Source: Tateyamaria sp. Alg231-49 (lineage in GTDB: Bacteria > Pseudomonadota > Alphaproteobacteria > Rhodobacterales > Rhodobacteraceae). From it: a stretch of DNA of 64,000 nt. The notes beneath the pieces are model-generated. The model did no database searches, was not told where the DNA came from, and worked only from the letters and a program-made list of their open reading frames with translations. Each line of letters begins with the position of its first letter. The first letter of the stretch is position 1. This document shows, in pieces, positions 1 through 20,439 of this stretch. The DNA is taken from the NCBI RefSeq assembly GCF_900143535.1, contig NZ_FRFA01000008.1:124001-188000 (forward strand). The letters run 5' to 3'. A program made the translations under genes and the position numbers.

Positions 1-676
1 CCGTTTCAAAGATTTCATGGATAGTTTCAGACGCATGGTGGATTGCTACAGCACACGTGTCTATCAAGGTTGGAAAACTATCTTCTGCGTCCCTTTGAAA
101 GCTGACCATTTTGAAGTCGTCATCGCCATCAAAATGAAAATGGCGATTTCTAAGCGTTTGAAGATTGTTGTGACCGCTATTGCAAAGCTGCGCATACACC
201 GTTCGATACTCTTTCTCCCATCCTAACGCCTTGTGTTTTTGGAACATGTTCTTGCTGACGGCACCTTGGTTTTTCAATTGATCAACCTCAGTTTGCTTAG
301 CCATCCGAACTCCATCAAAATCTTCAATTTCACTAAGACCTTTTACAAAGGGGTTTCCTTCACTGCTCTGATTAAAGAGCTTTAACCAATATTGATGATG
401 CTCAAGTTCTATAGCTCTGATGTGCTGACGGTCCTTTTTTAAGAGCGCGAGATCGACCCAAGCCTCGTACATAGTACGAAGCAATGGATATGCCATTTGT
501 CCTCTGCCAGCTTTTACCAGCATCAAGACTGTATCGCCGACTTCCAAAACTGTCAGGTAAAGCGCAACCGTAGTTGTTTGGTACATGTCTCTTGAATTCA
601 GTTTTAAGTGCTGAGTTTCTGGAAGGCATTTTTCGTGGATTAAGGCCACCAATTCATCAGCCGTTTCAAGTTTCAT
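1..676 (-). CDS. DUF5677-like protein, C-terminus outside window
   Basis: An open frame starts at an ATG at 676 behind an AGAGGG box and runs off the left edge without a stop; 225 codons are visible. The protein is mostly helical. The stretch LLRTMYEAWVDLALL at residues 65-79 and CNSGHNN at 165-171 are in the style of DUF5677 proteins, which are frequent in mobile elements and defence islands; this is a recognition by eye. The gene is clearly AT-richer than the genes to its right and is not overlapped with them, so it looks like separately acquired cargo at the end of the element. Function unknown. An anti-phage role would be inference only. Confidence 0.7.
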   Translation of the reverse strand, partial: MKLETADELVALIHEKCLPETQHLKLNSRDMYQTTTVALYLTVLEVGDTVLMLVKAGRGQMAYPLLRTMYEAWVDLALLKKDRQHIRAIELEHHQYWLKLFNQSSEGNPFVKGLSEIEDFDGVRMAKQTEVDQLKNQGAVSKNMFQKHKALGWEKEYRTVYAQLCNSGHNNLQTLRNRHFHFDGDDDFKMVSFQRDAEDSFPTLIDTCAVAIHHASETIHEIFET

Positions 677-743
677 CCTAAACCCTCTCGCATAAGGTTA
701 AGTGCTACAGGCAATGCCAATCCGGTTTCGTCGCAGCATCTGT

Positions 744-893
744 TTATTTTTTTTGCTGTCGTGATGCACGCTTTCGGTATGCATCGCCGCAGTATTTAGG
801 CGTCGTGTTGTATACATTGATCTTTTCGCCGCACATCTGACAACGCAACGGCACAGCAACTAGCCGAGTAATTGACGCCAACGACCGTATCAC
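744..893 (-). CDS. 49-residue zinc-finger-like protein
   Basis: This small frame starts with GTG at 893, which overlaps the TGA of the Mom-like gene (sequence GTGA), so translation is probably coupled. The protein has C18-x2-C21-x13-C35-x3-Y39 followed by RKRASRQ. The Mom-like neighbour has the same spacing at its N-terminus (C15-x2-C18-x13-C32-x3-C36, then RQRAKR). Here the fourth metal ligand is replaced by tyrosine. The two therefore share a small metal-binding module, and this one may be a stand-alone version. The function is not known; helping the modification enzyme bind DNA or protein is a guess. The start codon is uncertain because GTG is the only good coupled choice. Confidence 0.55.
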   Translation of the reverse strand: MIRSLASITRLVAVPLRCQMCGEKINVYNTTPKYCGDAYRKRASRQQKK

Positions 894-1669
894 AGGCCCA
901 ACAGCTTCGCCCGGCTCCGTCTATACGTCTTCGATCCGGCCAGTTTGACGAAACGACGCTTGCGCGGACGATCAATCAAACGCAGTCGATCGCCATACTT
1001 TGCGCGCAGCTGCTCATATCGATCTGGCTGGCCGCGAAACTCGCCCAAAATGGAGAACGAATGCCGGGTCTGCCTGCGTATTCGATATTCGCGTCTTCGC
1101 GCTGACCAACCCAACGGAATAAAAGACGCAGCGTGATAGATGCCGCCCCGGTGGCCTTGCCGGGGATCTGCAAACGTCACGCATGTGAAATCGCCAACGA
1201 TCGAACGCATCAGTTTCAGCGATCTTGAGATCAAACGCGTCGCGTCGTTTGGTCGATTGCTTCGAAGGACGAGGCGGTTCAATTCCCAGACTTCGCCAGC
1301 GTGATCTGGGCCGAGTACTGCGTCACGGGCTGATTGCGTTGCAGGGCGCCCGTAGGTGACAACGCCTTCGAGTGTCTCACCCACAAAAAGGCCGAATATG
1401 AAACTGACGGGTGGCCAACGACGCGCATAATGGATGCGCGTGATCAGATGGTCGGCGGCTGATCTGTCGATCTGCCTGATTGTCGTCCCACCCGTCGGCG
1501 CGGGGCAATTATCTGTGACGTTCTGTCGTTTGTTCGATCGAACGCGCTTTGCACGTTGCCTACATGTCGCGCCACAGAACGTAGCGTCGACGCGTTTTCG
1601 AATGAAGGTGTTACCGCACAGGGCGCACTGCGTTTTGACAGGCTGTTTGGGGCGGTAAGTTCGGACCAT
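890..1669 (-). CDS. Mom-like DNA modification protein with N-terminal zinc finger
   Basis: The 259-residue protein resembles the phage Mu Mom family, GNAT-fold enzymes that modify adenine in DNA and protect it from restriction. Visible family-like blocks are IHYARRWPP (79-87), FGLFVGETLEGVVTYGRPA (about 92-110), VWELNRLVL (128-135) and FADPRQGHRGGIYHAASF (about 166-183). In front of this sits a four-cysteine treble-clef-like finger (C15, C18, C32, C36) followed by a basic stretch, and the C-terminus is also very basic. The gene is near the distal end of the overlapping leftward phage-type operon, 40 bp after the preceding stop, and its TGA overlaps the start of the 49-residue zinc-finger gene. 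The family call is by motif recognition; the chemistry of the modification is not shown by the sequence. Confidence 0.72.
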   Translation of the reverse strand: MVRTYRPKQPVKTQCALCGNTFIRKRVDATFCGATCRQRAKRVRSNKRQNVTDNCPAPTGGTTIRQIDRSAADHLITRIHYARRWPPVSFIFGLFVGETLEGVVTYGRPATQSARDAVLGPDHAGEVWELNRLVLRSNRPNDATRLISRSLKLMRSIVGDFTCVTFADPRQGHRGGIYHAASFIPLGWSARRREYRIRRQTRHSFSILGEFRGQPDRYEQLRAKYGDRLRLIDRPRKRRFVKLAGSKTYRRSRAKLLGL

Positions 1670-1709
1670 TCGTCACGAATAATTGCCCCGCTCGGCGGCG
1701 TCAACGGCG

Positions 1710-2060
1710 TCACGCAACGCCTATGAACTCAGGTCGAACACGCGAAATTTTGACCGCCCTGCGCAGATGTCGCGGCGCGGTCACGCCAGGCAATTTTGCC
1801 TTGACCAAAGCGGCGTTCATCAAATCAGACGTACGGACGTCGCTGTGTGCGATTTTCGCAGGACACGAACAACGCCAGAATTCCAAATCGGCGCTGTCGA
1901 AACGATGAACGATAATGCCAAAAAGCCACGTTTTGCCGCTCTGATCGACGTCGAACTGCATAGCGCCAAATGCAGATTTGTTAGATCCACAGATCTTTAT
2001 TTCTTCGCCCGTCAGTTCGGAAACTTGGTCGGCAAAATCTATTTCGTTCGCGAACCGCAT
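1710..2060 (-). CDS. Unknown 116-residue element protein
   Basis: The start was set at the ATG at 2060, two bases after the TGA of the upstream gene (TGATATG), rather than at a longer frame that would read through that gene. The protein has a beta-rich first half (residues 15-65, with two cysteines in the stretch FWRCSCP) and a helical, arginine-rich C-terminus. I do not recognise a family. Position inside the chain of coupled small genes suggests a phage or satellite accessory protein co-expressed with the Mom-like enzyme. Confidence 0.65.
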   Translation of the reverse strand: MRFANEIDFADQVSELTGEEIKICGSNKSAFGAMQFDVDQSGKTWLFGIIVHRFDSADLEFWRCSCPAKIAHSDVRTSDLMNAALVKAKLPGVTAPRHLRRAVKISRVRPEFIGVA

Positions 2061-2061
2061 A

Positions 2062-2466
2062 TCACGCTGCCTTGTCAGACAGCCTTCGCACGTCGGCCAA
2101 CACAGCGTCCGCGTTGTCGTCCAAAAGAAGTTGAAGCCAAAAATGGGTTGAATGGAAGACGCCAGCACGCGCCTGATTTCTGATTGACGCACCTACAAGA
2201 ACGAAAAATCGATCGGTGGGCGTGTCTGTCGTGGCAATGCGCGCAGACATGCAGCCAATCAGATCCTCTAAAACGAAGTCGGGGAGGCTCCGAATGTCTG
2301 ATCTGCGAAAACGGATGTCGTCGAGGATGCTGTCGACCGTTTCATAATCTTGGTAGGCAGCTTTTCCACGCGATCTGGCATCGCCTACGCCATCGTTTTC
2401 AGCCATGCGTCTGTCGCGTTCGGCGCGCAGGGTCGACAACCACGTCTTTTCCGTAACCCCCGTCAT
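2062..2466 (-). CDS. Unknown 134-residue element protein
   Basis: The ATG at 2466 overlaps the upstream stop (TGATG), which fixes the start; a TTG one codon earlier is less likely. The product is acidic and helical with a highly charged N-terminal 50 residues and no membrane segment. I recognise no family. It belongs to the same overlapping operon as its neighbours. Confidence 0.65.
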   Translation of the reverse strand: MTGVTEKTWLSTLRAERDRRMAENDGVGDARSRGKAAYQDYETVDSILDDIRFRRSDIRSLPDFVLEDLIGCMSARIATTDTPTDRFFVLVGASIRNQARAGVFHSTHFWLQLLLDDNADAVLADVRRLSDKAA

Positions 2467-2660
2467 CAATTTAAAGGAACATCGGAAAGAGCGACTTCGC
2501 CAATCGCTTCGGCAACATCAATGTAGCGGTCCGCACGGTCCAGCCACGTCTCTGCATCTTCCTCTGTCAACGCCGCCGACGCCCGTTTCAGCGACGCCAG
2601 CGCGCATTCGAGTTGATCGCAAGCAAGATTCAACTTTTCGATGCGTTTTGAATTCTTCAT
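2466..2660 (-). CDS. Unknown 64-residue helical protein
   Basis: The start is the ATG at 2660, which overlaps the stop of the preceding gene as ATGA; a longer frame to 2792 would run inside that gene and was not used. The protein is a probable two- or three-helix bundle with two cysteines (residues 14 and 19) and an acidic C-terminus. Small coupled proteins of this kind are usual in phage early operons. No function can be assigned. Confidence 0.6.
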   Translation of the reverse strand: MKNSKRIEKLNLACDQLECALASLKRASAALTEEDAETWLDRADRYIDVAEAIGEVALSDVPLN

Positions 2661-2947
2661 CTGACCACCGTCAGCAGTTCCGATAGAGCAAAATCGAGCA
2701 TCTGCACGCCTTTGATCTGGACAAATACAAAGTTGATTTCCGTCCCGGTCTTGGCGCGAATGGATACACTTTCCACTTCGCCCAGATACCAAGCATCGTG
2801 GAAGGTCGCGTGGGTGATCACATCGCCAACGATCAGCGCATCAGCGCGCACCACCACCTCGGTCACGGTCGATGTCGGCGGGTCTCTGTCAGGCGATCCC
2901 ATTGTTTTTCTCCATCTGGTGATCAAATTGCGAAGGAAACCCAGCAT
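2657..2947 (-). CDS. Unknown 96-residue element protein
   Basis: The ATG at 2947 overlaps the upstream stop (TGATG). After a short basic helix (residues 1-15) the protein is predicted by eye to be a small beta-barrel-like domain (about 28-96) with alternating hydrophobic residues. No family is recognised. It is part of the overlapping leftward operon. Confidence 0.62.
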   Translation of the reverse strand: MLGFLRNLITRWRKTMGSPDRDPPTSTVTEVVVRADALIVGDVITHATFHDAWYLGEVESVSIRAKTGTEINFVFVQIKGVQMLDFALSELLTVVR

Positions 2948-3126
2948 CAATCATCCCGCGCCTCGCGTCGTTCAATTTCTAGCTGCAACTTCCGCGCAAC
3001 TGACCAAAAACGAGCATCCGCGGCTTCCGATTTTCGGCGCTTCAATTCCTCAAGGCTAACACTGGTTTCGAAGGTCGCAGCCATACGCGATTGCGCGTCC
3101 CTGACGTGAATTGCATCATCCGTCAT
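2947..3126 (-). CDS. Unknown 59-residue coiled-coil-like protein
   Basis: A short frame from the ATG at 3126 (overlapping the previous stop as ATGA) to the TGA at 2947. The sequence is strongly charged with a heptad-like helical region over residues 22-58 (SLEELKRRKSEAADARFW and following). It fills the gap between two well-supported genes with overlaps at both ends, which is the main support for it. Function unknown. Confidence 0.6.
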   Translation of the reverse strand: MTDDAIHVRDAQSRMAATFETSVSLEELKRRKSEAADARFWSVARKLQLEIERREARDD

Positions 3127-3761
3127 TGCATCACCTCAAGGGATGCGTTGTCAGCCGCTTGCTGCTTGTAAGCAGCGCCAATGCTCATCGCTGGCCAGTC
3201 AACAGGCGGAACTCCAATCATCTCCACACCGCACAGAACGTCAGGCAGCGGCAAGGTGTCAAAGATCAACTTCATCTGGTCATCAGGCACTCGCCCAGCC
3301 ACAGCCGCCACAGCCTTTGCACCGTCTGCAACAGCATCCCAGATTTCGCCCGCATCAACCTGCGCAATGAACCGTCGATAGTTGTCTGGCAACGCGCCGA
3401 TCTTGCCGCGCACGCCGTGGTGCGACAGCCACTTGGCCAGACACATTGCGGTTGCCACCCGGCGCGCTTCGTCCTGATCGGTTTGGGCTTTGGTCAGGAC
3501 ACGGAACATCGCCGTTTTGTCTTCCTCGGACACACACGTGCCTTCCGTTGAGCCACCGTTTGCAGCCTGTTCGATCATGACAACCATCAGGATGCTGGCG
3601 TCCAAGGAATGGAAAAACACCTCGCCTTCGTTAGCACCCGCGCAAACGGCGAATTGCAGGTGTTCCGTCTCGCCCTGTTCACCACCAAGGGCGGCGTGCA
3701 GAGCCAGCGACGAGATGATGTGCAGGCACTCATGAATTTGCAGGTCTTGAATATCGCTCAT
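3123..3761 (-). CDS. Unknown 212-residue element protein
   Basis: The frame starts at 3761, overlapping the upstream stop as ATGA, and ends overlapping the next start in the same way. The N-terminal half has histidines and a run of small hydrophobic residues (SSLALHAALGG near 17-27), the middle is helical and charged, and the C-terminal third contains DAVADGAKAVAAVAGRVPDDQ. I do not recognise the family. The absence of a signal peptide or long hydrophobic segment suggests a cytosolic protein. Confidence 0.7.
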   Translation of the reverse strand: MSDIQDLQIHECLHIISSLALHAALGGEQGETEHLQFAVCAGANEGEVFFHSLDASILMVVMIEQAANGGSTEGTCVSEEDKTAMFRVLTKAQTDQDEARRVATAMCLAKWLSHHGVRGKIGALPDNYRRFIAQVDAGEIWDAVADGAKAVAAVAGRVPDDQMKLIFDTLPLPDVLCGVEMIGVPPVDWPAMSIGAAYKQQAADNASLEVMQ

Positions 3762-4453
3762 TTCTTCTTCCTTTTCGTCTTGAACGAAGCCCTCTCGGCT
3801 GCGTGGGCGGCGTCAATCTCACGCTGCTTTTTGGCCTGCTTCGCATCGTGTTCAGCTTGAAGCCGTGCGGCGTTTTCGGCTGCGGTTTCACCTGCCGGGG
3901 CTGGGTTCATAATCCCAGCCAGCGTGGCCTTCGCTTTGCGTGCGGCAGACGCGGCGACCGCTTGCGGCACGATGTCTTCCAACGGCCAGCCGCGATCAGG
4001 AACCAGCGATTGGTTCGACGCGTCACGCAACGCCTTCGCCAGCTTGCGGAAGCGGCTCACGCCCAGCTTTTGTTCAAGGTGATAAACGCCCAGCACCACC
4101 GCGCATGGCAGCGTGTCCGATTTGGTGTATTCAGCAAAAAGCTGCATATCTTTACCGCTCAAGTCGCCAGCCTTCTGAATTTCTCGGTCGGTGCCCTTTT
4201 GCATGACCTTCACGATTTCATGCTGGTCGGCCAACTTGGCAAGAGGGCCAACCGCAACCAAAGACGCGATCTGCTTCGCGTAGTCGTCCACGTGGTCGCC
4301 AAACACGATGGCAGCTTCACCACCCTTTGCATCCATCGCAAACAGAACACGCGCATCCGAATAGCGCGCCGGGTCGGTCCGACAGATGGCGATAGCACCT
4401 GCCTTGATGTGCCGAAGTTCTTCCCAACTGATTTGGGGCGCTGTCATGTTCAT
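3758..4453 (-). CDS. Unknown 231-residue protein with lysine-rich tail
   Basis: The start at 4453 overlaps the upstream stop (ATGA). Residues 1-170 look like a compact alpha/beta domain. The last 50 residues are a long charged helix, ending in a block of lysines and arginines (KTKRKKK) that could bind nucleic acid. No family is recognised. It is one of the larger genes of the coupled operon and is probably an element-specific function. Confidence 0.7.
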   Translation of the reverse strand: MNMTAPQISWEELRHIKAGAIAICRTDPARYSDARVLFAMDAKGGEAAIVFGDHVDDYAKQIASLVAVGPLAKLADQHEIVKVMQKGTDREIQKAGDLSGKDMQLFAEYTKSDTLPCAVVLGVYHLEQKLGVSRFRKLAKALRDASNQSLVPDRGWPLEDIVPQAVAASAARKAKATLAGIMNPAPAGETAAENAARLQAEHDAKQAKKQREIDAAHAAERASFKTKRKKK

Positions 4454-4713
4454 TGGAACACCGCCTTCACCATCGCAGGCAGATCGCCCTTCAAATGCTT
4501 GGAGCGGCGCAGAACCACGTTTTCGGCGTGGGTTCGAAGGGCGGCAAGGTTGCTGTCGGCCACCGCCATCGCAGCGCCTTTTACCAAATTGTTTCCGTCC
4601 AACGTATCAATGCGCTCGGCCACCGCCCCGATCTGTTTGTCCGTGCTGGCCCGCTCTTCCTTCAAAATCTGGCCAAGGGCGTCGAGGATGCTTTTTGTTT
4701 CTGCGTCCATCAT
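4450..4713 (-). CDS. Unknown 87-residue coiled-coil-like protein
   Basis: The ATG at 4713 overlaps the TGA of the upstream gene, so it was preferred over a start five codons earlier. The protein is almost entirely helical, with a heptad-like N-terminal part (residues 1-45) and a basic segment LRRSKHLKGD near the end. The function is unknown. It sits between two larger unknown proteins with coupling at both ends. Confidence 0.63.
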   Translation of the reverse strand: MMDAETKSILDALGQILKEERASTDKQIGAVAERIDTLDGNNLVKGAAMAVADSNLAALRTHAENVVLRRSKHLKGDLPAMVKAVFQ

Positions 4714-5462
4714 GCTGCGGCACTCCAAATGTCTGCGATGTGATCAACAGCCGCGCGGCGCTTGGCCTCTTTGTTGGATGACTTCAAACGCGCACCCGCT
4801 TCGCGCTCCTCGTTGAAATACCGCTTTGCTTCGGCGGTGACGTCCCGCGCCCAGATGGTCGCTGGGGTTTCACCAAGTCCGCCAGCGGCCCACTGTTTTG
4901 CGCTGATGCGCTCTGGCAAGGCAAAGTCGTCTGGCAACTCGTATTGCGCCAGATCGTGGGCGGTCACGTGGTCCAACGTAAGGCAACGCAGGGTAAGGCG
5001 GCGCAATGCTGTGTCGTGCTTCACCGCGCGAGATTTTAAAACGCTGTGATCGGCAAACAGGGCGGCGCTGGCATCACGCAACGCTTTTGCGCAGTCGCCC
5101 AACTGGTCTAGGTCCAGATCGGCGTCAATCAGGTGCAGCGTTTCGAAGCTGGCCACCGTGGTCAGGGCCAAGTCAATCAGCGATCCGGTTTGGTCCGTCT
5201 CGGCACCAGAAAGCAGGTCAGCAGCGCCTTTGAACTGTTCCGCCTGTGCTTCGATCTGCTTGGCAATGTCGGCCAGCATGTCGGCGTCACAGTGCGCTTC
5301 CTCGACCAGCGCCACGGCATCGTCAGCGCCGGGCAGATCTTTCTCAAGTGCCTTGCAACGATTGATGGCTTCCGCAGCGATCTGCGAACCGATCTTTTTC
5401 GATGTGGTGAGGTTTGATTTGCCTGCTTTAATGCTTGCAGGCGGAAGCTTTCGTTTCAGCAT
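4710..5462 (-). CDS. Unknown 250-residue element protein
   Basis: First gene of the second overlapping block: 140 bp without a gene separate it from the block upstream. On its coding strand that gap holds TTAACA, 16 bases, then TGTAAT, a possible promoter. The protein has a basic N-terminus (MLKRKLPPASIKAGKSNLTTSKK), long helices through residues 30-140 and a charged C-terminal helical region. No family is recognised. A role as scaffold or DNA-associated protein cannot be distinguished from sequence. Confidence 0.7.
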   Translation of the reverse strand: MLKRKLPPASIKAGKSNLTTSKKIGSQIAAEAINRCKALEKDLPGADDAVALVEEAHCDADMLADIAKQIEAQAEQFKGAADLLSGAETDQTGSLIDLALTTVASFETLHLIDADLDLDQLGDCAKALRDASAALFADHSVLKSRAVKHDTALRRLTLRCLTLDHVTAHDLAQYELPDDFALPERISAKQWAAGGLGETPATIWARDVTAEAKRYFNEEREAGARLKSSNKEAKRRAAVDHIADIWSAAA

Positions 5463-5602
5463 CTATTTTCCTTCGGTCAGCCACTCTGGCGCTGCGATGG
5501 AAGGAAAGTATCAGATCACCGTCAGATTTGAAGTCTTTTCTGTTTAATTACAATACGTTGTGCAAGGTTGTTAAGTGCTATAATGAACGAAATATAGCGG
5601 TT

Positions 5603-5890
5603 TCAGGCCCGTTCGCGCTCGGCCAACACGGTCAGATCAGCAACAGACAGGCCACGCGACATGTATTGCGACAAAACATTCGACGCGTCCCAGATGTCTG
5701 CAGGGACGTTGCCAGCCAACAAGAACACCTCGCCCCACGCGTCTTCGCCCAGCCTTTCGCGAACAACACCAGAAATGTGCGCAGCCAACAACGCCCGGCA
5801 AGCTGGTTTGTCGTCCAACAGATCGAAGCGCGGCGTGCCGCCGAGCAGTGCGTGGATGTCATCGTCAGTGAGGCGCGTCATTTTTGTCAT
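5603..5890 (-). CDS. Unknown 95-residue element protein
   Basis: The ATG at 5890 overlaps the stop of the small-terminase-like gene (ATGA), so the two are probably translated together. The protein is small, helical and acidic, with LTDDDIHALLGGTPRFDLLDDKPA at the start, and has no recognisable domain. It closes the first block of the operon. Confidence 0.65.
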   Translation of the reverse strand: MTKMTRLTDDDIHALLGGTPRFDLLDDKPACRALLAAHISGVVRERLGEDAWGEVFLLAGNVPADIWDASNVLSQYMSRGLSVADLTVLAERERA

Positions 5891-6402
5891 TGGATCAACC
5901 CCGCCAATGGCCCATTCGCATTCGGCAGTTGCTGTTCAGGTGCGTCTGCGTCGATCGTAACAGCGCGACCCAATCGATCACGATACGATTGCGCCACGTT
6001 TGCAGCCGTTCGCAAATCTTCTCGGTGGATTAGGTTAAGAGAAAGCCTGCGCGCCAATCTGGCAACCGCCGCCTCATGGTACTCTAGTGCGAGATACAGA
6101 GGATTGCGCTTATGACCACCACGCGATGTGCTGACCAACGGACCAGTGCGCATCAACGCTCGCTGCAATTTTTGAGATTGCGTGAAATGGACAGCATAGG
6201 TCGCCGCTTCTTGAACATCTGTCCTCGACCACTGATCTGGCGCGCGGCTGCTGATTACCGCCTCAAACGCGCCGTCCGCCCGATCCTGATCTGTTGGATC
6301 AGGGAACCTTTCAACTTCATTCGGCCATCGCAGAGTCGGAAGCCGGGTCAGTCGCTCAGCGTGAATTTCGCCGCTCACAGTCGTCGCTTTAGGTCGTTTC
6401 AT
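5887..6402 (-). CDS. Small-terminase-like protein (P27/HK97 gp1 style)
   Basis: The start at 6402 has a strong GGAGGA box, so it was chosen over an ATG nine codons upstream without one. The 171-residue protein has the layout of P27-type small terminase subunits: a helical region with WSRTDVQEAATYA (58-70), then RNPLYLALEYHEAAVARLARRLSL (99-122), matching the usual family pattern of an R/K-NP segment followed by a long helix. Small terminases recognise phage DNA and direct packaging. No large terminase or capsid gene is visible nearby, which is typical of phage satellites that redirect a helper's packaging machinery. The family call is tentative because it rests on pattern alone. Confidence 0.5.
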   Translation of the reverse strand: MKRPKATTVSGEIHAERLTRLPTLRWPNEVERFPDPTDQDRADGAFEAVISSRAPDQWSRTDVQEAATYAVHFTQSQKLQRALMRTGPLVSTSRGGHKRNPLYLALEYHEAAVARLARRLSLNLIHREDLRTAANVAQSYRDRLGRAVTIDADAPEQQLPNANGPLAGLIQ

Positions 6403-6434
6403 TAGTCCTCCGGTGTTTTTTGCGATCATGGGTG

Positions 6435-6671
6435 TTATGCGCCGGGTCGGTCAAAAAGAAAAAAATCTGCACTTGCATTGAAAGAGATGTCCCCCTGCAC
6501 GGTCGCGCTTCCCCATCTGTTTCTTTCAGCCGCCGCCCCCTCCCTGTATATCGCCGCCCCGTGTGGCCACGTCAAACGTCCGCACGCGTGGCGCGCGCAA
6601 CGGTGTGTTGACGTAGGTTGGGTGCCTATCAATGCTAGAGGCTCTGAGAGGCGCGCATATGCGGTCATCAT
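6435..6671 (-). CDS. Doubtful 78-residue frame with duplicated start region
   Basis: The frame begins at 6671, overlapping the stop of the 85-residue gene as ATGA. Its start region copies that of a leader-like frame at 7014: both begin M(M)TAYAR behind an AAAGG box. Beyond about residue 10 the composition is rich in Arg, His and Ala and not convincing as a folded protein. The end lies just before the small-terminase-like gene. It may be translated mainly for coupling, or may be a decayed duplicate. Confidence 0.33.
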   Translation of the reverse strand: MMTAYARLSEPLALIGTQPTSTHRCARHACGRLTWPHGAAIYREGAAAERNRWGSATVQGDISFNASADFFLFDRPGA

Positions 6672-6925
6672 GTCGGCCTTTCGATTGTCTTGTTGTCATC
6701 GACGATCGCGCGCAAAGAAGACACCATTGCCCCAGTTATGTCAGCCAATACGTTCAGCTTCGAACTCACATCGAACCCGGCGGCGTCCAAATCTTCGAAG
6801 ATGTTTCCTTTCGCGTCTTCAAGCGCAGCGATCGCGTCTATCAGTTGACGCATGCGGCGCTCTGAGACGTGGCCGCTGCGGTATGCGTCACGCAACGATT
6901 GCAGATACCGTTGGTTAGTCATCAT
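6668..6925 (-). CDS. Unknown 85-residue element protein
   Basis: The ATG at 6925 has a good GAAAGGACGAC ribosome site and overlaps the stop of the 30-codon leader frame. The product starts MMTNQRYLQSLRDAYRSGHVSERRMRQLIDAIAALEDA, a helical, basic then acidic pattern that suggests a small DNA- or protein-binding helical bundle. No family is recognised. It is the first convincing gene of the block downstream of the rep gene. Confidence 0.6.
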   Translation of the reverse strand: MMTNQRYLQSLRDAYRSGHVSERRMRQLIDAIAALEDAKGNIFEDLDAAGFDVSSKLNVLADITGAMVSSLRAIVDDNKTIERPT

Positions 6926-7014
6926 GTCGTCCTTTCGATTAGGGTTGTCACCGTTTGTCGCCACGCGCGCGTGAGGTTGTCACCGTTTGTCGGCACGCGC
7001 GCATACGCGGTCAT
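6922..7014 (-). CDS. 30-residue leader-type peptide
   Basis: A short frame with its own AAAGGACGAC ribosome site starts at the ATG at 7014 and stops inside the start of the 85-residue gene (ATGA overlap). The peptide starts MTAYARVPTNGDNL. It reads through a tandem 28-bp repeat, so its sequence is partly repetitive. The arrangement suggests translational coupling or regulation of the following gene and not a functional protein. Confidence 0.4.
   Translation of the reverse strand: MTAYARVPTNGDNLTRAWRQTVTTLIERTT
6943..7002. repeat. Tandem 28-bp direct repeat, 32-bp period
   Basis: Two near-identical copies start at 6943 and 6975. Each reads GGTTGTCACCGTTTGTCG, then C or G, then CACGCGCGC. They lie upstream of the 85-residue gene and could be binding sites for an element-encoded regulator or replication protein, or simply a duplication. 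Confidence 0.75.
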
Positions 7015-7043
7015 CTTGTCGTCCTTTCGATTTGGTTTGTTTT

Positions 7044-7159
7044 GCGACACTGCGCCACTTTGTGCGACACTTGAAAAACAAGGTGGCGCAGAGGTGTGTG
7101 CTGCACCTTCAACATGTCGCGAGACACAATGTTGATGGTGTGGGTGTCGCGTGCGACAC
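7044..7159. repeat. GCGACAC boxes in the gap beside rep
   Basis: The roughly 200-bp gap between the rep stop and the next genes holds repeated GCGACAC motifs. Direct copies lie at 7044 and 7064 (20 bp apart), a TGTCGCGAGACA palindrome at 7115-7126, and a perfect 16-bp inverted repeat GTGTCGC-gt-GCGACAC at 7144-7159. This could be a replication origin with iterons for the RepA-like protein or an operator; the sequence alone does not decide. Confidence 0.6.
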
Positions 7160-7215
7160 CACCACCTCTATAGGGGGTGTGGGGGTGGCGCGCGCATAAA
7201 AACAAAGGGAGTGTG

Positions 7216-8628
7216 TTAATCATTCGGATGCACTGGTCCCACAGCATATGTCGGTCGATCTTTCCGTTGGTTTTCGTCTCGGATCTGCGCCACTTGTAAC
7301 CACCTTTGCGACACCCATTGATCTAAGATCGATTTGACTTTGGCTTTTGCAGCTTTTCGTTCCCGGCGTTGGCTTTCTGGTGGCATGTCGATGTTGCAGA
7401 TCCTTGCTACGACATACCCAAACCAGTCGGTTGCTTGCGAACTGGCGCGTGCTGCCCCTTCTTGCATTGCATTCAATTCGCGAACGGTGTCGACGGCCAT
7501 TTGCAATGTGATGCCTTCGAAGGCGTCGGGCCATTCCCATTTTGACAATGCGCCGACGCTTTGGCCGTTTGGCAGAATGACGCCTGATTTTCTGAACCAT
7601 TGGTTCCGTTCGCTGCTGGGCGGGGCAAGGTTGCTCTCGACATCGCCCACACGAAAGAAGAAGCGCGGATCATCTTCGCCTGCGTCTGTGGCTTGCCCTT
7701 CTGTCATTCCAACAAGGATGCGATTGAAGCGTGACGTTCCTCGGAGTGAGCTTCCGCCTCTTGCGTCATCGATCGTCGGTATCATGCCCGCTGTGACTTT
7801 TCGGGTGTGGTGTACGATGTGAACAGCAATGTTGCTTTCAGACGCCATTCGCCTGATGCGTTGCCCCAGCAATCGAAAGGCGTCGTTGCTTTCATCGGCG
7901 TGACTGAGGTCTTGCAGTGGATCGAAGACCACCACGTCGATATTTAGGCTTTCGATTTGTTCGATGATATTTTCGAACACGACTTCATTGATCATGATGT
8001 CGCGATCTTTTTGCCCTACCAGAAAGAGGTCGGGCCATTTGACGCCAGATTGCAAAAACAGTCTATTTTCGAACTGTGATTGATCGATTTCGTTTCTGAT
8101 ACAATTTGCAGCGTAACGACCGTGCAGAACGTTTTGATCGTCTTCTGCGTTGAGATACAGAACCCGGCGAGGTTCGACATTTACCCCAAACACTTTTCCG
8201 CCGCTTGCCATGTCTTGCGCTTCTGCGAGTGCCAGCATTGATTTGCCGACTTTTGGTGCGGCGATTGTCAGGCTTGTGTATCCGCGCGCATAGAAGTCGC
8301 GGTAGAGAAAGTCGGTCGCCGGGATTTCTTCGAAGTTGAATTCCCCAACGGGTTGGAACACTGGCAGCGTTGGCATGCCCTTAGCTTCGATGTTGATCGA
8401 CAGGTCGCCTTTCGTCACGCGCCAATGCCCGTTGAACCTTTCGACACTCGCGCCCAGATCGGCCAATTCGGCGGTGATCTTTTTTTGTGATCCTTTCGCG
8501 CCTTTGATGATTTTCGACGCCTGCCGTTTCAGGGTTCCAATTAATTCCTGTTCGCCCGGTTCTTGTATGTAATCGAAGGGAACCATACCGAGGTTTGGGA
8601 CGCCTTCTGGCATTCTTCTTTGGCTCAT
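7216..8628 (-). CDS. RepA-like AAA ATPase (replicative helicase)
   Basis: A 470-residue protein of the RepA/DnaB-like ATPase group that unwinds or loads at replication origins of plasmids and phage-like elements. The core shows AAPKVGKS (Walker A, 123-130), LYLNAEDD (157-164), DVVVFDPL (Walker B, 231-238) and VHIVHHTRK with a following RGTSRF motif. The C-terminal 100 residues look like a helical winged-helix-type region. The start at 8628 overlaps the upstream stop (ATGA) and was chosen over a start 69 codons earlier that would overlap that gene. The GCGACAC boxes lie just beyond its 3' end. Confidence 0.82.
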   Translation of the reverse strand: MSQRRMPEGVPNLGMVPFDYIQEPGEQELIGTLKRQASKIIKGAKGSQKKITAELADLGASVERFNGHWRVTKGDLSINIEAKGMPTLPVFQPVGEFNFEEIPATDFLYRDFYARGYTSLTIAAPKVGKSMLALAEAQDMASGGKVFGVNVEPRRVLYLNAEDDQNVLHGRYAANCIRNEIDQSQFENRLFLQSGVKWPDLFLVGQKDRDIMINEVVFENIIEQIESLNIDVVVFDPLQDLSHADESNDAFRLLGQRIRRMASESNIAVHIVHHTRKVTAGMIPTIDDARGGSSLRGTSRFNRILVGMTEGQATDAGEDDPRFFFRVGDVESNLAPPSSERNQWFRKSGVILPNGQSVGALSKWEWPDAFEGITLQMAVDTVRELNAMQEGAARASSQATDWFGYVVARICNIDMPPESQRRERKAAKAKVKSILDQWVSQRWLQVAQIRDENQRKDRPTYAVGPVHPND

Positions 8629-9230
8629 TGCTTGCCCTTCCTGTATTCGGCGAGGTCGATGATCGTCGCGGAGCGGGGTGACGTTCTTGCCACTCCGCTT
8701 CGCTTCGGCCCAGTTTTTCGTTTGTGTTTTTTCGTCTGTCGCGCCCAGTTCGACAGTTGGTATGTGCCGTGTTTTTGCGTCGCCAGATCCAGCGGTTCGA
8801 TCAGCAGCAAGCAAGTGTGCGGTGGCCACCACCACGACAGGTGGTCAAGGCGTCGCCACGTCGCAAATTCGTTGTGTCCGTCAATTGGCAATGCGCCTGT
8901 GTTGTATGGCTGCAAGACGACACCAGCGGTGCGTCTGTTCTTTGCAAAGAACGCCGGGTGATCCCACGCGTCGGCCACACCCGGCACGCTATTCACGAAT
9001 TGTGTGAGGATGCGGCAGTCGTGTTGAAAGAATTCGACATGCGAGGAATGTTGCGCCCAATTTCGTCTGGTCGGTTTCGCGCCATTCAGCATGGCAAGAC
9101 AGAATGTTTGCTGGACGATTTCTTCTTGGTCGTTGCGCCAATTCAGATCCTTCGATCGCCATTCGTCGCGCAGATCGATAGCTTGCTTGAGCAGGGCTTC
9201 GGTTGTCAGTTCGATGTGATCTGTGCGCAC
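8625..9230 (-). CDS. Unknown 201-residue element protein upstream of rep
   Basis: The protein starts MRTDHIELTTEALLKQAIDLRDEW and contains an aromatic-rich middle (AWDHPAFFAKNR, near 88-99; RRLDHLSWWWPPHTCLLLIEP, about 125-145) and a lysine/arginine-rich tail. I do not recognise it. Its stop overlaps the rep start, so it is probably made in equal amounts with the ATPase and may be a replication accessory or primase-like factor; that is inference from position. Confidence 0.65.
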   Translation of the reverse strand: MRTDHIELTTEALLKQAIDLRDEWRSKDLNWRNDQEEIVQQTFCLAMLNGAKPTRRNWAQHSSHVEFFQHDCRILTQFVNSVPGVADAWDHPAFFAKNRRTAGVVLQPYNTGALPIDGHNEFATWRRLDHLSWWWPPHTCLLLIEPLDLATQKHGTYQLSNWARQTKKHKRKTGPKRSGVARTSPRSATIIDLAEYRKGKQ

Positions 9231-9314
9231 GCTGCGTGTCCTTGTCGTGACCGTCGCGGCGCTATATAAACCTGATCATCTGCTGATCTTGTCTGCACCC
9301 AGCGACTAGATTTT

Positions 9315-9346
9315 GAAACCGCTGCGCCGCTATGCGCGGCGGTTTC
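9315..9346. terminator. Strong hairpin downstream of alpA-like gene
   Basis: GAAACCGC-t-GCGC pairs with GCGC-g-GCGGTTTC around a short loop, followed on the plus strand by TTCTTCTTTTT. The T-rich side favours termination of rightward transcription, but the stem lies just after the stop of the leftward AlpA-like gene and could limit read-through into rep as well. Confidence 0.55.
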
Positions 9347-9353
9347 TTCTTTT

Positions 9354-9563
9354 TCAGGCGGATTGTTTTTCTTCGATCATCGACTGTTCCCACGCTTCCA
9401 GTTCTGCGACAGACCAGCGGGTCGTGTTTTCGAACATCTTGACGGGTTTAGGGAGCAATCCTGATCTGACTTTCCGCCAGATTGTGACGCGTGAAATGCT
9501 GTATCGCTGGCCGACTTCTTTGTCGGTGAGCCAGACTTTTTGAGGCGTATTCGGTTCTGCCAT
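9354..9563 (-). CDS. AlpA-like helix-turn-helix regulator
   Basis: A 69-residue protein with the AlpA/excisionase-type winged helix: WLTDKEVGQRYSISRVTIWRKVRSGLLPKPVKM at about 11-43. AlpA-type proteins activate or excise P4-like elements and phage satellites. The start at 9563 has GGAGAAAG in front; ATGs 8 and 20 codons upstream are possible. It lies between the integrase and the rep genes, the usual place for this regulator in satellites. Confidence 0.82.
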   Translation of the reverse strand: MAEPNTPQKVWLTDKEVGQRYSISRVTIWRKVRSGLLPKPVKMFENTTRWSVAELEAWEQSMIEEKQSA

Positions 9564-9648
9564 CGTGCTTTCTCCAGTTTTCTTCATGACGCCGAAAGAA
9601 ACGGACCGCGCCTGATTGGTCAACTAGAAAAAGCGTTATAAAACAATG

Positions 9649-9698
9649 ATGTACAACGTTATATTGATGTCAATTAAGAGGAACTTAAGATTGTACAA
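9649..9698. promoter_or_regulatory. AT-rich control region between alpA and int
   Basis: The 150-bp gap is far more AT-rich than its surroundings. It has two TGTACAA boxes 42 bp apart (9649-9656 and 9691-9698, the second a perfect TTGTACAA palindrome) and between them TTGATGTCAA (9664-9673), whose minus-strand reading gives TTGACA. This looks like the alpA promoter with operator boxes; spacing to a -10 is not convincing. Confidence 0.4.
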
Positions 9699-9719
9699 AT
9701 TTTTGAGCGTTGAAATCGT

Positions 9720-10898
9720 TCAACTTTCGTTCGCGAGGAAGTCAGAATATTTTTGCATCATGTCACGGCGTCTTTCGAGCATGTCGGAGCGCATGTACGC
9801 ACGTTCAACCGCAGACCCGACGTTGTGCGCCAAGGCGATTTCCGCCATGTCGCGATCTTGCCCGGTTTCTGCCGCCCAATCTCTGAACGCAGACCGCAGA
9901 CCGTGAGGCACGATCGGGCGACCTGAACGCGCATCGACGATCCCCGTTGCCTTCATTGGTTTTGCACAGGCGACGTCTGACAGCATATTGCCCGTCACGG
10001 TAAAGATCAGATCGCCAAGACGCGGCATGTTCTCCAATACGGCCATTGCTTCGTCCGACAGCGGCACCCGATGTTCCTTGCGCGTCTTGATGCGCGCTGC
10101 CGGGATCGTCCAGATACGGTTGTCGAAATCAATTTCATCCCAGCGCGCCCCGCGCACCTCTGCCGATCGTGCGGCGGTCAGTGTCATGAATTCGATCGCG
10201 CGTGCGCTGACAGTATCCTTCGCGCGGATCTGCGCCACGAAGGCGGGCAACAGAGCGACCGGAACGGCGGCGTGGTGACGCACAGACGACACCTTCGAAG
10301 GTTTGGGCAGTGTAGCGTCGAGATTGCCTTTCCACCGGGCTGGGTTGTCGCCTGACCGATGCCCATGAACGGTTGCCCACGCAAGCACTGCTTCGATGCG
10401 TCCGCGCAAGCGCGACGCTGTTTCCGTCTTCGTCGTCCAAATCGCGCTGAGAACGCGCAGGACGTCCTGCACATCGATGTCCGCTACCGGGCGATCGCCG
10501 ATCACAGGTGTTGCGTAGTTGTCGAGCGTTGCACGCCACTGCGCGCGGTGCTTGTCGTTGTGGAATTCAGCCAGCTTCACTTTCAAGAAACCTTCTGCCG
10601 CTTCTTCGAAGGTCATAGCGATCTGTGGCGCGCGTGGATCGCGGCCATGCCAGACTTCTTCGCGGTAGTGGCGCGCGCGTTCGCGCGCTTGCGACAATGA
10701 GACGGTTGGGAATGATCCGAGGCCGAGCGATGTGCGTTGACCATTGATGACGATGCGCAGCAACCACGATCGCCCGCCCGTGGGTGTCATTTGCAGATAA
10801 AGCCCATCGACGCCGCCTACTGGCACAACGATCTTTTTGTCGGGTGTTTTGAGGTGCCTGATGTCGGCTGAATTCAGTTCTTTCGCGCGTTTGGGCAT
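9720..10898 (-). CDS. int: P4-type tyrosine recombinase (integrase)
   Basis: A 392-residue site-specific integrase with the DUF4102-type N-terminal arm-binding domain (GGVDGLYLQMTPTGGRSW near 28-45), a central SAM-like domain and the C-terminal catalytic domain. Visible catalytic residues are R244 (TAARSAEVRG), H332 and R335 (PHGLRSAFRD), H358 (LAHNVG) and Y368 (ERAYMR). The gene reads leftwards, away from the right boundary of the element at about 11044. This family usually integrates at the 3' ends of tRNA genes, which fits the tRNA-Ser-like repeat there. Confidence 0.92.
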   Translation of the reverse strand: MPKRAKELNSADIRHLKTPDKKIVVPVGGVDGLYLQMTPTGGRSWLLRIVINGQRTSLGLGSFPTVSLSQARERARHYREEVWHGRDPRAPQIAMTFEEAAEGFLKVKLAEFHNDKHRAQWRATLDNYATPVIGDRPVADIDVQDVLRVLSAIWTTKTETASRLRGRIEAVLAWATVHGHRSGDNPARWKGNLDATLPKPSKVSSVRHHAAVPVALLPAFVAQIRAKDTVSARAIEFMTLTAARSAEVRGARWDEIDFDNRIWTIPAARIKTRKEHRVPLSDEAMAVLENMPRLGDLIFTVTGNMLSDVACAKPMKATGIVDARSGRPIVPHGLRSAFRDWAAETGQDRDMAEIALAHNVGSAVERAYMRSDMLERRRDMMQKYSDFLANES

Positions 10899-10902
10899 AT
10901 TG

Positions 10903-10926
10903 TCTACCTACCATTCTACCTGCCAA
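10903..10926. repeat. Two 12-bp repeats upstream of int
   Basis: TCTACCTACCAT and TCTACCTGCCAA are adjacent, just upstream of the P4-type integrase start. They could be arm-type binding sites of that integrase. The rest of the 300-bp gap up to the next gene holds the attachment-like core and the 12-bp arrays listed separately. Confidence 0.4.
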
Positions 10927-11043
10927 CGCAGTTAATGCAGCATGATACACGGAACAACCGCTTGTAACGCATCCGCCATGTTTTATTGGACAACACGCAT
11001 GTTTGACACGCCACGACACAAGGTAAAACACCGGGCTGTGCGT

Positions 11044-11057
11044 CTGTCTCTCCGCCA
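11044..11057 (+). other. Attachment-site core, tRNA-Ser 3'-end-like (att copy 1)
   Basis: CTGTCTCTCCGCCA occurs here and again at 20426-20439. It matches the form of a tRNA-Ser 3' end: acceptor strand TCTCTCC, discriminator G, then CCA. No tRNA body precedes either copy, so both are 3'-end duplicates left by integration. This copy separates the left element from the second one. Confidence 0.72.
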
Positions 11058-11145
11058 TTTTTCTCAAGATCGCTATCTCATAACCGCCTGATAGTGGGAT
11101 AGAATTCGGCGTTTTCGCGCTGAAGGCGGTGTTTGGTCCGCTTGA

Positions 11146-11181
11146 TTTGCTGCACATTTTGCTACACAATTTGCTGCACAA
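11146..11181. repeat. Three 12-bp arm-type repeats at left end of second element
   Basis: TTTGCTGCACAT, TTTGCTACACAA and TTTGCTGCACAA follow each other with an exact 12-bp period just before the second integrase gene. Two further copies occur at the other end of the element (20330-20353). This is the expected layout of integrase arm-binding sites left in attL and attR. Confidence 0.75.
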
Positions 11182-11199
11182 ACGGGGGATTTCTCCGCC

Positions 11200-12468
11200 A
11201 TGAGCATCGCGAAACGAGGCCGTCTCTACCACCTCCGCCGCCGCGTCCCGCGCCGGTATCGGAGGATCGAGCCGCGTGAAACCGTCTGGATCAGCCTTCA
11301 CACCGACTCGGAGACCGTCGCCCGCAGCAAGGCGGATCAAGCGTGGAGCCAGATGGTCGAGGCCTGGGAGGCCCGGCTGGCCGGGAACAGTGAAGATGCA
11401 GAGGCCCGCTACGAAGCCGCGCGCGACCTCGCCCGGGCGCGCGGTTTTCGGTATCTGGATGCGGGGGCGGTGGCCAAGTTGCCGGTTGAGGAAGTCGTCG
11501 AGCGCGTCGAGGCAATCCCAGCCCCGGCGAAGCAACCCGATGCCATCGAGGCCGTGGCCCTTCTCGGCACCGTCCCGGAACCCCGGATGTCGGTCACCAA
11601 GGCACTGGAGCTCTACTGGGGCCTCGCCAAGGAAAAGACTCTCGGCAAGAGCGAGGACCAGCTGCGCCGTTGGGAAGCGCCGCGCAAGAAGGCGGTGAAG
11701 AACTTCGTCGCGGTCGTCGGCGACAAGCAGATCGCCAACATCACACGCGACGACATGCTGGACTTCCGCCAGCACTGGCTCGACCGGATCGAGGCGGGCG
11801 AAGTCACGGCGAACTCGGCCAACAAGGATCTGATCCACCTTGGCGACGTTCTGAAGACTGTGAACACAATGAAGCGGTTGGGTCTGACGCTTCCGCTCGG
11901 CGAGCTGTCCTTTAAGGAGGGAGAGAAGCTGACGCGCCCACCATTCAGAGAGGATTGGATCAGGACACGGCTCCTCGCGACGGGAGCGCTGGACGGGTTG
12001 AACGGTCAGGCCCGCGCTCTGCTGCTCGGGATGATCAACACGGGCTACCGGCCCTCCGAAGGCGCAGCGCTCACGGCGGACACGATCCGGCTAGACTGCG
12101 ACGTTCCCCATATCTCCATCGAACCGGAGGGACGGCAGTTGAAGAGCCACTACGCCCGCCGGGTGATCCCGCTGACCGGTGTCTCGCTGGAAGCCCTCAA
12201 GCAGTACCCCGAGGGCTTTCCCCGCTACCGGAACCGCGCCACCCTGAGTGCGGTTGTGAACAAGTTCCTCCGCGCCAACGGCCTGCTCGAGACCCCGCGC
12301 CACTCGATGTACTCCCTGCGACATGCCTTTGAAGACCGCATGCTTGCCGCCGGGATCGACGACCGCATCCGCCGCGACCTCTTCGGTCATCGGCTCGACC
12401 GGGAACGGTACGGCAAGGGCGCGTCGCTGGAACACGTCGCAGAACTCGTCGCCCGTCTCGCCTTTTGA
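11200..12468 (+). CDS. DUF6538-type tyrosine recombinase (integrase)
   Basis: A 422-residue integrase with an N-terminal RGRLYHLRRRVPRRYR segment (6-21, DUF6538 style), a central core-binding domain (about 130-225) and a catalytic domain with R284 (TGYRPSEGAA), R374 (SLRHAF), H397 (FGHRLD) and Y404 (RERYGKG). Its gene starts 140 bp right of the tRNA-Ser-like repeat and directly after three 12-bp repeats. It probably drives movement of the 11044-20439 element. Base composition is clearly more GC-rich than in the left element, so the two elements have separate origins. Confidence 0.92.
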   Translation: MSIAKRGRLYHLRRRVPRRYRRIEPRETVWISLHTDSETVARSKADQAWSQMVEAWEARLAGNSEDAEARYEAARDLARARGFRYLDAGAVAKLPVEEVVERVEAIPAPAKQPDAIEAVALLGTVPEPRMSVTKALELYWGLAKEKTLGKSEDQLRRWEAPRKKAVKNFVAVVGDKQIANITRDDMLDFRQHWLDRIEAGEVTANSANKDLIHLGDVLKTVNTMKRLGLTLPLGELSFKEGEKLTRPPFREDWIRTRLLATGALDGLNGQARALLLGMINTGYRPSEGAALTADTIRLDCDVPHISIEPEGRQLKSHYARRVIPLTGVSLEALKQYPEGFPRYRNRATLSAVVNKFLRANGLLETPRHSMYSLRHAFEDRMLAAGIDDRIRRDLFGHRLDRERYGKGASLEHVAELVARLAF

Positions 12469-12683
12469 GCCAGCAAGGTACGCGCCCGGCGCTGAGCTTC
12501 CGAGAGCCGCCTCTCCTTCTGCACGGCCGCGGCCAGTTCCGCCTCCAGCCGCTCGAACACTGGCGCGAAGGCCGGGTCATCCGCAACCAGTGCGGCGACC
12601 TTCATCAGCGCCGCCTCGATCCGCGCGGCATCGACCGGTTGGGCCGGGCGGTTGCGTTGTGGTGAAGGGCGAGGCCGTGTCAT
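12387..12683 (-). CDS. Unknown 98-residue protein overlapping integrase end
   Basis: The frame reads MTRPRPSPQRNRPAQPVDAA and continues as a convincing helical protein (AALMKVAALVADDPAFAPVFERLEAELAAAVQKERRL). Its last 25 or so residues lie antisense to the integrase 3' end and turn to Arg/Ser-rich, non-native-looking sequence. I take the gene as real in its first 75 codons and probably truncated or extended by fusion with the integrase end. A start four codons upstream (12695) is possible. Function unknown. Confidence 0.45.
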   Translation of the reverse strand: MTRPRPSPQRNRPAQPVDAARIEAALMKVAALVADDPAFAPVFERLEAELAAAVQKERRLSEAQRRARTLLAQKARRATSSATCSSDAPLPYRSRSSR

Positions 12684-13208
12684 GCCGAGCAGCATGGGGC
12701 CGTGCCTTCGGCTTGTGCAGGGCAAGCAAACGCGCTGCGCAAATCGGCCTGTCACAGCGTTCAAATCGGACGGGATGCTCGCACGACCTCGGGCCGATCT
12801 TGGTCGTCGATGCCGCAAGTTTGACGGTCTTGGCCGGATCACGACTCATGCGTCGGAGATCAGTATTTGGGATGGGTCTTGAGGCGTTCTGGAAGTGCCT
12901 TGACCGGTTGCTTGGGAAGGCCTCGAAAGGACAACAGGAGGGATGGCAAGATAAAGCGAGCTCCTCGCTGGCCGGGCCCCTGGCCCTAAGTTGTTGTCTG
13001 CACATTGATTTTTGGGCTCTGTCGCGGTCGGTGCGCGGATAGTGTGCGGCACAGCCCGACACTTTCCCCAGTGAATTCAATGCTCTTTCCTGCCACGCCG
13101 CGCCGCAATCGGGACGCACCCTACGCCACGGCCTGTCGTTGCACGCCAGGCTACGATGACCCTCGGACAGCCCTTGATCCGTCCCCAAGCACCCTTAATC
13201 GTCTCTTC
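12684..13208. other. Gap upstream of relaxase, possible oriT
   Basis: About 525 bp without a convincing gene; long open frames here have poor composition. Because the relaxase gene follows, a transfer origin is expected in this stretch, but I could not identify a defined nick site or a clear inverted repeat. Confidence 0.3.
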
Positions 13209-15293: not shown

Positions 15294-15452
15294 CCGATCC
15301 ACAATTGGGCGCTCTTGTCCCGTTGGCCTGATCCTATTTGATTTCGTACTAGCCCCAAATAAGGCCACTGAGTAAGATTGTGTTGGACCATGCACTTTCC
15401 GGTTGGTTTTCAAAACCAATTGCACCTGTGCCCATTTATCAGGAGAACACCC

Positions 15453-16214: not shown

Positions 16215-16253
16215 CCGCCATCCCGCCCCGTGCTGCGTCCTTGCCCTGCGGCA

Positions 16254-19661: not shown

Positions 19662-19769
19662 GTGGTGTCGGCCCCCCCACTTGAACTACTGTCGGAAATT
19701 AGCCTGCGGTGGTTGTCATTCAATGCGATTTGTACCCAAAATGGGCGCGACTTTGGGAAGGCGACGCAC

Positions 19770-20252: not shown

Positions 20253-20329
20253 AACCCTGAGCGCCTAGGTGTTTGCCAACTTCACCAAGTATTCTTGCCT
20301 AGGGGCCAATCAGTATCTTTGTTACGCGA

Positions 20330-20353
20330 TCTGCTGCACACTTTGCTGCACAA
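20330..20353. repeat. 12-bp arm-type repeats at right end of second element
   Basis: TCTGCTGCACAC and TTTGCTGCACAA lie next to each other, followed by a degenerate third unit (TCCGCAACACGC). They match the three repeats at 11146-11181 in sequence, orientation and period. Confidence 0.72.
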
Positions 20354-20425
20354 TCCGCAACACGCGGAAGCCCTGATCCAAACAAAATCAACAGCTTAAG
20401 GCATTGATAGAAAACAGCTTTCGGA

Positions 20426-20439
20426 CTGTCTCTCCGCCA
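20426..20439 (+). other. Attachment-site core, tRNA-Ser 3'-end-like (att copy 2)
   Basis: An exact second copy of CTGTCTCTCCGCCA, 9.4 kb from the first, with different flanking bases on both sides. It marks the right end of the second element. Confidence 0.72.

Follow-up and report, generated by a model that had tools for sequence, protein, structure and literature searches.

Element A of Tateyamaria sp. Alg231-49, a probable phage satellite with a small terminase gene at the 3' end of tRNA-Ser(CGA)

What kind of mobile element is represented by a block of leftward-reading genes that starts with an integrase and includes a terminase-like gene, and in which no capsid gene is visible? The question was raised by a first-pass annotation of a 64,000-nucleotide stretch of the genome of Tateyamaria sp. 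Alg231-49 (Rhodobacteraceae; contig NZ_FRFA01000008.1, positions 124001-188000), which proposed a satellite similar to the phage-inducible chromosomal islands (PICIs) in its first 11 kb. This whole stretch is referred to as the window, and all window coordinates count from its first base. The element, here called element A, was delimited, and its genes, relatives and integration site were analyzed. Element A is probably a PICI-like phage satellite of the non-capsid type which encodes a terminase small subunit (TerS) and is inserted at the 3' end of tRNA-Ser(CGA). The analysis shows directly where the element begins and ends, which genes it holds, that these are intact and overlap, that its TerS is identified with moderate confidence, that its integrase has affinity to those of capsid-encoding satellite-like elements and that other islands occupy the same site.

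Element A is 17,383 bp long (contig 117675-135057; window -6325 to 11057), an extent which follows from the positions of the two copies of the core sequence CTGTCTCTCCGCCA that flank it. The left attachment (att) core consists of the final 14 bases of tRNA-Ser(CGA) (contig 117661-117674; window -6339 to -6326), 6.3 kb left of the window; the tRNA gene is located at contig 117585-117674 and has chromosomal genes to its left. The right core (11044..11057, plus strand) is an exact copy. The first-pass annotation had placed the right end at 11043, one base before this core, and had left the other end outside the window, where leftward extension located it. The 14-bp core occurs exactly three times in the 4.5-Mb genome, all in forward orientation, where about 0.05 copies are expected from base composition, and provides at the tRNA-Ser 3' end the specific and unique att site that is typical of PICIs. 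The third copy (20426-20439) forms the far boundary of a tandem neighbor, element B. The G+C content of element A is 53% versus 58% in the 20-kb left flank. No joined empty site was found in congeners: the tRNA side matched in 20/20 genomes of the genus (own included), and the right flank aligned only in the own genome, save for two short unlinked matches among these 20 genomes.

Read from the tRNA, the gene order is HNH, a 348-aa gene, DUF3604, Crp-like, DUF5677, Mom, overlapping small open reading frames (ORFs), TerS, a 98-aa ORF, RepA, a 201-aa ORF, AlpA and integrase. The integrase, AlpA, RepA-like, TerS-like and Mom genes and the small overlapping ORFs named in the first-pass annotation were all recovered on the minus strand of 1-11043 with Pfam and PHROG searches. 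The tyrosine integrase (9720..10898, minus strand; 392 aa; Pfam Phage_integrase 2.8e-18) and an AlpA-like excisionase/regulator (9354..9623, minus strand; 89 aa; HTH_17 1.8e-6, Phage_AlpA 1.4e-4, PHROG excisionase/regulator 2e-10) lie together at one end, as in PICIs. They are followed by a RepA-like AAA_25 ATPase/helicase of about 470 aa (7216..8628, minus strand, the longest ORF reaching 8835; Pfam AAA_25 1.5e-31). Downstream of repA lies a candidate replication-origin region (6651..7032, plus strand) with two 28-nt tandem repeats (6943-6970 and 6975-7002) and a 31-36-nt repeat in three copies, each of which also has a leader resembling a ribosome-binding site. The starts of repA (8628) and terS (6402) were picked by eye from Shine-Dalgarno sequences.

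The 171-aa protein that had been taken for a small terminase has a length that fits the start at 6402 (5887..6402, minus strand), and with moderate confidence it is predicted to be a terminase small subunit of the P27/HK97 type. It matches Pfam Terminase_4 barely over the cut-off (2.6e-5; 25.0 bits, cut-off 24.7) and gives two matches to PHROG terminase small subunits (6.2e-5 and 0.0015); a sequence search of PDB gave no match. The AlphaFold2 model, built on a 3-row alignment, has a mean predicted local distance difference test (pLDDT) score of 65, with residues 31-130 at 73-92 in ten-residue blocks. The top PDB match of the model is the HK97 TerS 8pop (probability 0.99, TMq 0.38, E 0.046), the chains of 6z6e (also HK97 small terminase) match with a probability of 0.72-0.84, and no PDB fold match reached E<=0.001. 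Each of the six BFVD matches at E<=1e-3 is a terminase small subunit.

Between the att cores, no capsid, portal, tail or large terminase (TerL) gene was recognized above threshold in the ORFs scanned, which did not include every small ORF. This bears out the first-pass statement for the 11 kb that it covered, and extends it to the part between the att core at the tRNA and the window edge, where such genes would have pointed to an ordinary prophage. As far as recognized, element A has neither the large terminase, portal, capsid and tail genes within att sites by which an intact prophage is defined nor the capsid genes of its own that mark the capsid-forming PICIs (cfPICIs).

To place element A among its relatives (loci are numbered L, genomes G), its integrase was used in a search of the family. 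Integrase relatives with E<=1e-80 are present in 85/394 family genomes, the own genome included. The 40 survey regions were taken from the better integrase places, and contig ends truncate several of them. In 25/40, int is preceded by a 14-21-bp repeat that matches the 3' end of a tRNA gene facing it and delimits islands of 4.9-16.8 kb; this count was made without a shuffled control. The tRNA is tRNA-Ser in 16 of these 25 islands, and Arg, Ala, Gly, Glu or Met in the others. With a RepA alignment, 13 loci were detected on genome contigs and another 22 on viral contigs, and L027, L029-L031, L033 and L034 are islands of 6.9-11.9 kb with a short att repeat to a tRNA. L033 has the same tRNA-Ser(CGA) core as element A, with rplU, rpmA, obgE and proBA (named by eye) as adjoining ORFs. 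Together, 31 att-bounded relatives were obtained (25 by integrase and 6 by RepA). An alpA match is present in 29, a Toprim-type primase in 12, a RepA of the element A kind in 7 (a count biased by the way in which the six were found), a TerS recognized by profile in one (L032) and an HNH gene like that of element A in one (L131, 3e-62). Structural genes in relatives were searched with phmmer using few queries, and 117 plus-strand representatives were scanned as a pool, the families considered being the top 25 of 132 (PHROG) and of 52 (Pfam). A capsid-portal-TerL set was found in two islands (L105 and L106), and 29/31 had no match to the structural queries, which is not proof of absence given the few queries, the top-25 scope of the pooled scan and a head-decoration match described below. 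Cargo in the pooled island proteins includes restriction-modification systems, methyltransferases and helicases.

The L032 island (Tateyamaria sp. 4-55, congener G397; 4054-19025) is a 15-kb tRNA-Lys island with a TerS (Terminase_2) and no recognized TerL, and carries in addition Abi-alpha, an NYN-domain protein and a 939-aa protein without family. At the tRNA-Arg end of the 6.2-kb island L111, a TerS-like ORF (L111:7643-8167) has a small terminase as best PDB match (E 0.0023). L025 (Gemmobacter nectariphilus) has consecutive AlpA, RepA and TerS (Terminase_2, 2.1e-24) genes and, next to them, type I restriction-like genes (by eye), and no integrase was recognized there. L113 may hold a tandem arrangement around 11758-13194, where the upstream repeat recurs as a 15-bp copy at 11822, at which a 478-aa ORF starts.

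The closest kin of the element A integrase belong to elements that encode capsids. In L105, TerL_ATPase, TerL_nuclease, Phage_capsid, Prim-Pol and AAA_25 are above cut-off, and a portal match (1.1e-7) falls short of the Pfam cut-off. A scan of viral contigs with the integrase alignment gave 161 relatives, of which 80 were kept. TerL and capsid of the L105 style were found by phmmer in 17/80 loci, 14 of these 17 with the portal as well; 14/17 are located on contigs of 9.3-12.3 kb, and the contig of L151 measures 53 kb. A further 9/80 pair a capsid with a different type of portal, and 47/80 had no structural match. Integrase, TerL, HNH and capsid, mostly with alpA and portal, occur in L105, L106, L146-L158, L161, L162, L169, L174 and L215 (not L148), many of them on contigs of about 10 kb; such elements are common among the integrase relatives from viral contigs. 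No tail gene was seen in the gene lists of L105, L106, L147 and L153, and no small terminase among the ORFs scanned in L105, L147, L153 and L022. A 94-row integrase tree (without L032, L022 and integrases <330 aa, and with only L146-L191 of the 80 viral loci) places element A in a 20-row group with 16 L105-type elements (support 93/83). The tree label 'cf1' (23 rows) includes five elements of other gene order, none of which is in this group; the four rows of the group labeled 'none' include element A itself and L148, a short contig. By path, the rows nearest to the element A integrase are L151, L147, L148, L149 and L158.

The tRNA-Ser(CGA) site is used by other islands in the genus. Downstream of this tRNA, a second core copy is present in 4/19 other congeners and 15/19 have the tRNA copy only (two of the stretches being <1.4 kb and three <10 kb). 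L241 (G406) is a 16.0-kb island with the integrase at the far end, a portal and a protease-capsid fusion; L238 (G397) is a 15.4-kb island with portal and protease-capsid fusion, followed in tandem by a unit similar to element B. These genes are Pfam-supported in both islands. No TerL was recognized by eye in L241 and L238, and both are candidates for capsid-forming satellites in the same genus. In L242 (8.4 kb) an integrase and a relaxase like those of element B stand alone, and L230 (12.5 kb) has an element-B-like integrase, both at tRNA-Ser(CGA). Element B itself (11058..20439; 9.4 kb) encodes an integrase with DUF6538 (11200-12468, plus strand) and a relaxase with DUF3363 (13005-15293, plus strand).

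The remaining genes of element A are mostly without family. The 201-aa protein between alpA and repA (8625..9230, minus strand) has no significant Pfam or PHROG family, and its single-sequence fold prediction was uninformative (pLDDT 34). Nothing above cut-off was found for the 98-aa protein (6668..6964, minus strand) or the 95-aa protein (5603..5890, minus strand), which overlaps terS by 4 bases. Nine mostly overlapping small ORFs (1710..5462, minus strand; 250, 92, 231, 212, 59, 97, 108, 135 and 160 aa) gave no family above cut-off (8/9 scanned against PHROGs and 5/9 against Pfam, the 59-aa ORF being outside both scans). The 201-, 212-, 231- and 250-aa ORFs had no match in PADLOC, which is no test of phage interference. 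No relative was found for the 231-aa gene in viral contigs and plasmids or for the 250-aa gene in phages, and the DNA of 1710-6430 had no match in phages. Overlaps of 4 bases occur at seven gene junctions from 2062 to 9230, and the chosen set of minus-strand ORFs fills 91% of 890-10898. The Mom-like DNA-modification protein (890..1669, minus strand; 259 aa; Pfam Mom 5.4e-29, PHROG Mom-like 5.3e-33) has an N-terminal zinc-ribbon-like segment and is 41% identical to a Roseobacter phage CRP-902 protein across half its length. Its N-terminus weakly resembles tiny island proteins in L029 (11415-11705) and L106 (oriented 11567-11860; pairwise BLAST E 0.01 and 2e-5). A Mom gene common to L106 was rejected, as the match consists of the 26-residue zinc ribbon alone. 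A DUF5677 protein is cut by the window edge (1..676, minus strand; full ORF L004:5963-6676), and outside the window, to its left, are a Crp-like regulator, DUF3604 (1.7e-229), the 348-aa protein without family and, adjoining tRNA-Ser, the HNH endonuclease (Pfam HNH 1.4e-9; PADLOC type IV restriction match 2e-6).

By analogy with known PICIs, the following cycle can be pictured for element A, from its induction and excision through replication to packaging and transfer. A helper phage would switch on the AlpA gene, and AlpA and integrase would cut the element out at its 14-bp core. Replication would be driven by RepA and may start in the repeats that follow repA. A P27-type TerS normally partners an HK97-type TerL; the TerS of the element would mark its own DNA, so that the TerL of the helper packs it into capsids made by the helper. 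Modification by the Mom-like enzyme may protect this DNA from restriction in a new host. The anatomy, together with the PICI biology outlined in parts of PMC6092414 and PMC10803314, points to excision triggered by AlpA, replication of its own and packaging directed by TerS.

The satellite proposal is supported by the anatomy, the att-bounded int-alpA islands in relatives, the integrase kin and the shared tRNA hotspot, and the likeness to PICIs is one of anatomy. Several observations weigh against this reading of element A. In searches limited to three families, the own genome had no match to PF03354 (TerL) and PF04860 (portal) of a resident HK97-type helper or to the gene transfer agent marker PF13547 (controls positive in 3, 4 and 1 of 14, respectively), and a helper would thus come from outside. 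Neither Pfam nor PHROG scans gave a primase family in element A. TerS matches in 2/394 family genomes (the own and one weak relative, 30%, 9e-9) and in 1/385 class genomes (the own alone), with no relatives in phages and none in viral contigs when searched with short peptide patterns from the single protein. TerS was dropped as a marker for sister elements because it is too divergent. The support of the 20-row group is below 95, and no starred set contains the row of element A. Among the viral loci, 7/80 have other TerL, portal or capsid matches on phage-like contigs, and some loci without structural match are located on contigs of 42-63 kb and could be whole prophages. The pooled island proteins include one phage head-decoration match (HDPD, 2.3e-30), and at least one island beyond L105 and L106 may carry an overlooked head gene. 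Finally, the left third carries genes without obvious satellite role (DUF3604, Crp). By eye, the HDPD match perhaps corresponds to L141:9499-10305 in a tRNA-Gly island, a possible head-decoration gene; a PDB search of this ORF gave nothing.

Element A could instead be the remnant of an ordinary prophage which lost its late genes and kept TerS, an explanation we regard as unlikely. Its RepA relatives (about 40-48% identity) include phages and prophage-like loci (L011, L013, L024, L043) in which repA lies near TerL or portal genes, TerL is present near the RepA-bearing ORF in several viral contigs, L024 and L043 are prophage-like with portal and TerL matches, and in L024 int and repA are accompanied by an ORF resembling TerS, called P27-type by eye. 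Integrase relatives also occur on phage-like contigs, and the 135-aa ORF has a sub-threshold match to the tail-chaperone family Phage_tail_APC (E 0.074; 13.3 of 26.6 bits). However, the integrases of L024 and L043 are on a long separate branch together with islands L027 and L033, away from element A, and element A itself has intact att sites, tightly overlapping ORFs and no structural fragment above threshold. Repeated independent decay would hardly leave 29/31 att-bounded relatives without a match to the few structural queries used. Still less probable is movement by conjugation, with element A as an integrative plasmid-like or mobilizable island and TerS as an incidental gene: RepA also resembles RepA/RepC-type plasmid helicases and the tandem neighbor element B has a relaxase, but no relaxase or conjugation gene was recognized in element A, and TerS and Mom are phage-type genes.

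Two further ideas concern how the satellite is built and what it exploits. It is conceivable, as a minority view compatible with a PICI-like satellite, that element A arose in two events, with a satellite core from int to Mom and a separately acquired left cargo (HNH, DUF3604, Crp), in which case the working satellite would span only about 11 kb. The DUF3604-Crp pair is flanked by 40-bp imperfect direct repeats (L004:2462-2501 and 5851-5890) of which the window has no copy, the own genome contains 6 matches to DUF3604 and the gene strand switches at the left; on the other hand, no att core lies between the two halves, and the HNH gene at least is an island gene, since a related HNH is present in the att-bounded island L131. 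A far-fetched idea is that of a satellite of satellites, in which element A would hijack the capsids of another satellite and a phage would supply the tail only. It is suggested by the integrase lineage of islands with TerL, capsid and portal, by the fact that TerS, the piece not found in the scanned ORFs of L105, L147, L153 and L022, is just what element A contributes, and by the tRNA-Ser site shared with capsid-encoding islands in congeners.

Compared to known systems, the element A that we favor, a PICI-like satellite, resembles the Gram-negative PICIs described in parts of PMC6092414 in its integrase, AlpA-type regulator, replication gene, optional TerS, specific att site, accessory genes far from int and lack of recognized structural genes. 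It differs in its alphaproteobacterial host, of the Tateyamaria group, and in having no recognized primase; RepA is present, and the repeats downstream of repA are origin candidates. What links it to cfPICIs is that its nearest integrases belong to elements, possibly cfPICIs themselves, with TerL, HNH, capsid and mostly portal; element A differs from these in encoding TerS, with neither capsid nor portal nor TerL recognized. The adjacent int and alpA also recall phage-inducible chromosomal minimalist islands (PICMIs), and several relatives, such as L029, L030, L031 and L034, show int, a further ORF, alpA and a primase or RepA. In the published PICMI model, according to parts of PMC10803314, a primase is mandatory and the prototype has six genes; element A lacks a recognized primase, and with it the int-alpA-prim arrangement, and is larger. 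The cfPICI family, tycheposons and VEIMEs are named in passages of PMC11389934. By description, element A may be likened to tycheposons and VEIMEs, integrative elements of marine origin which use tRNA genes as insertion sites or are carried in virions. Among the matches listed from the open-access literature, no description of satellites in Rhodobacteraceae or of Mom in satellites was recognized, and PMC8224337, on Rhodobacteraceae prophages, contains no word starting with 'satellite' or 'alpA'. The first-pass suggestion of an undescribed family agrees with this at keyword level, which is not a full literature check.

If element A is indeed a satellite, satellite-like islands of one integrase kinship would be common in the family, and would come in capsid-encoding, TerS-only and defense-cargo versions at the same tRNA sites. 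They would offer a natural system to study how satellites switch between making and stealing capsids. The Mom-like gene, if active, would let the satellite shield its own DNA by base modification, and genes may be transferred by such islands as well as by phages and gene transfer agents.

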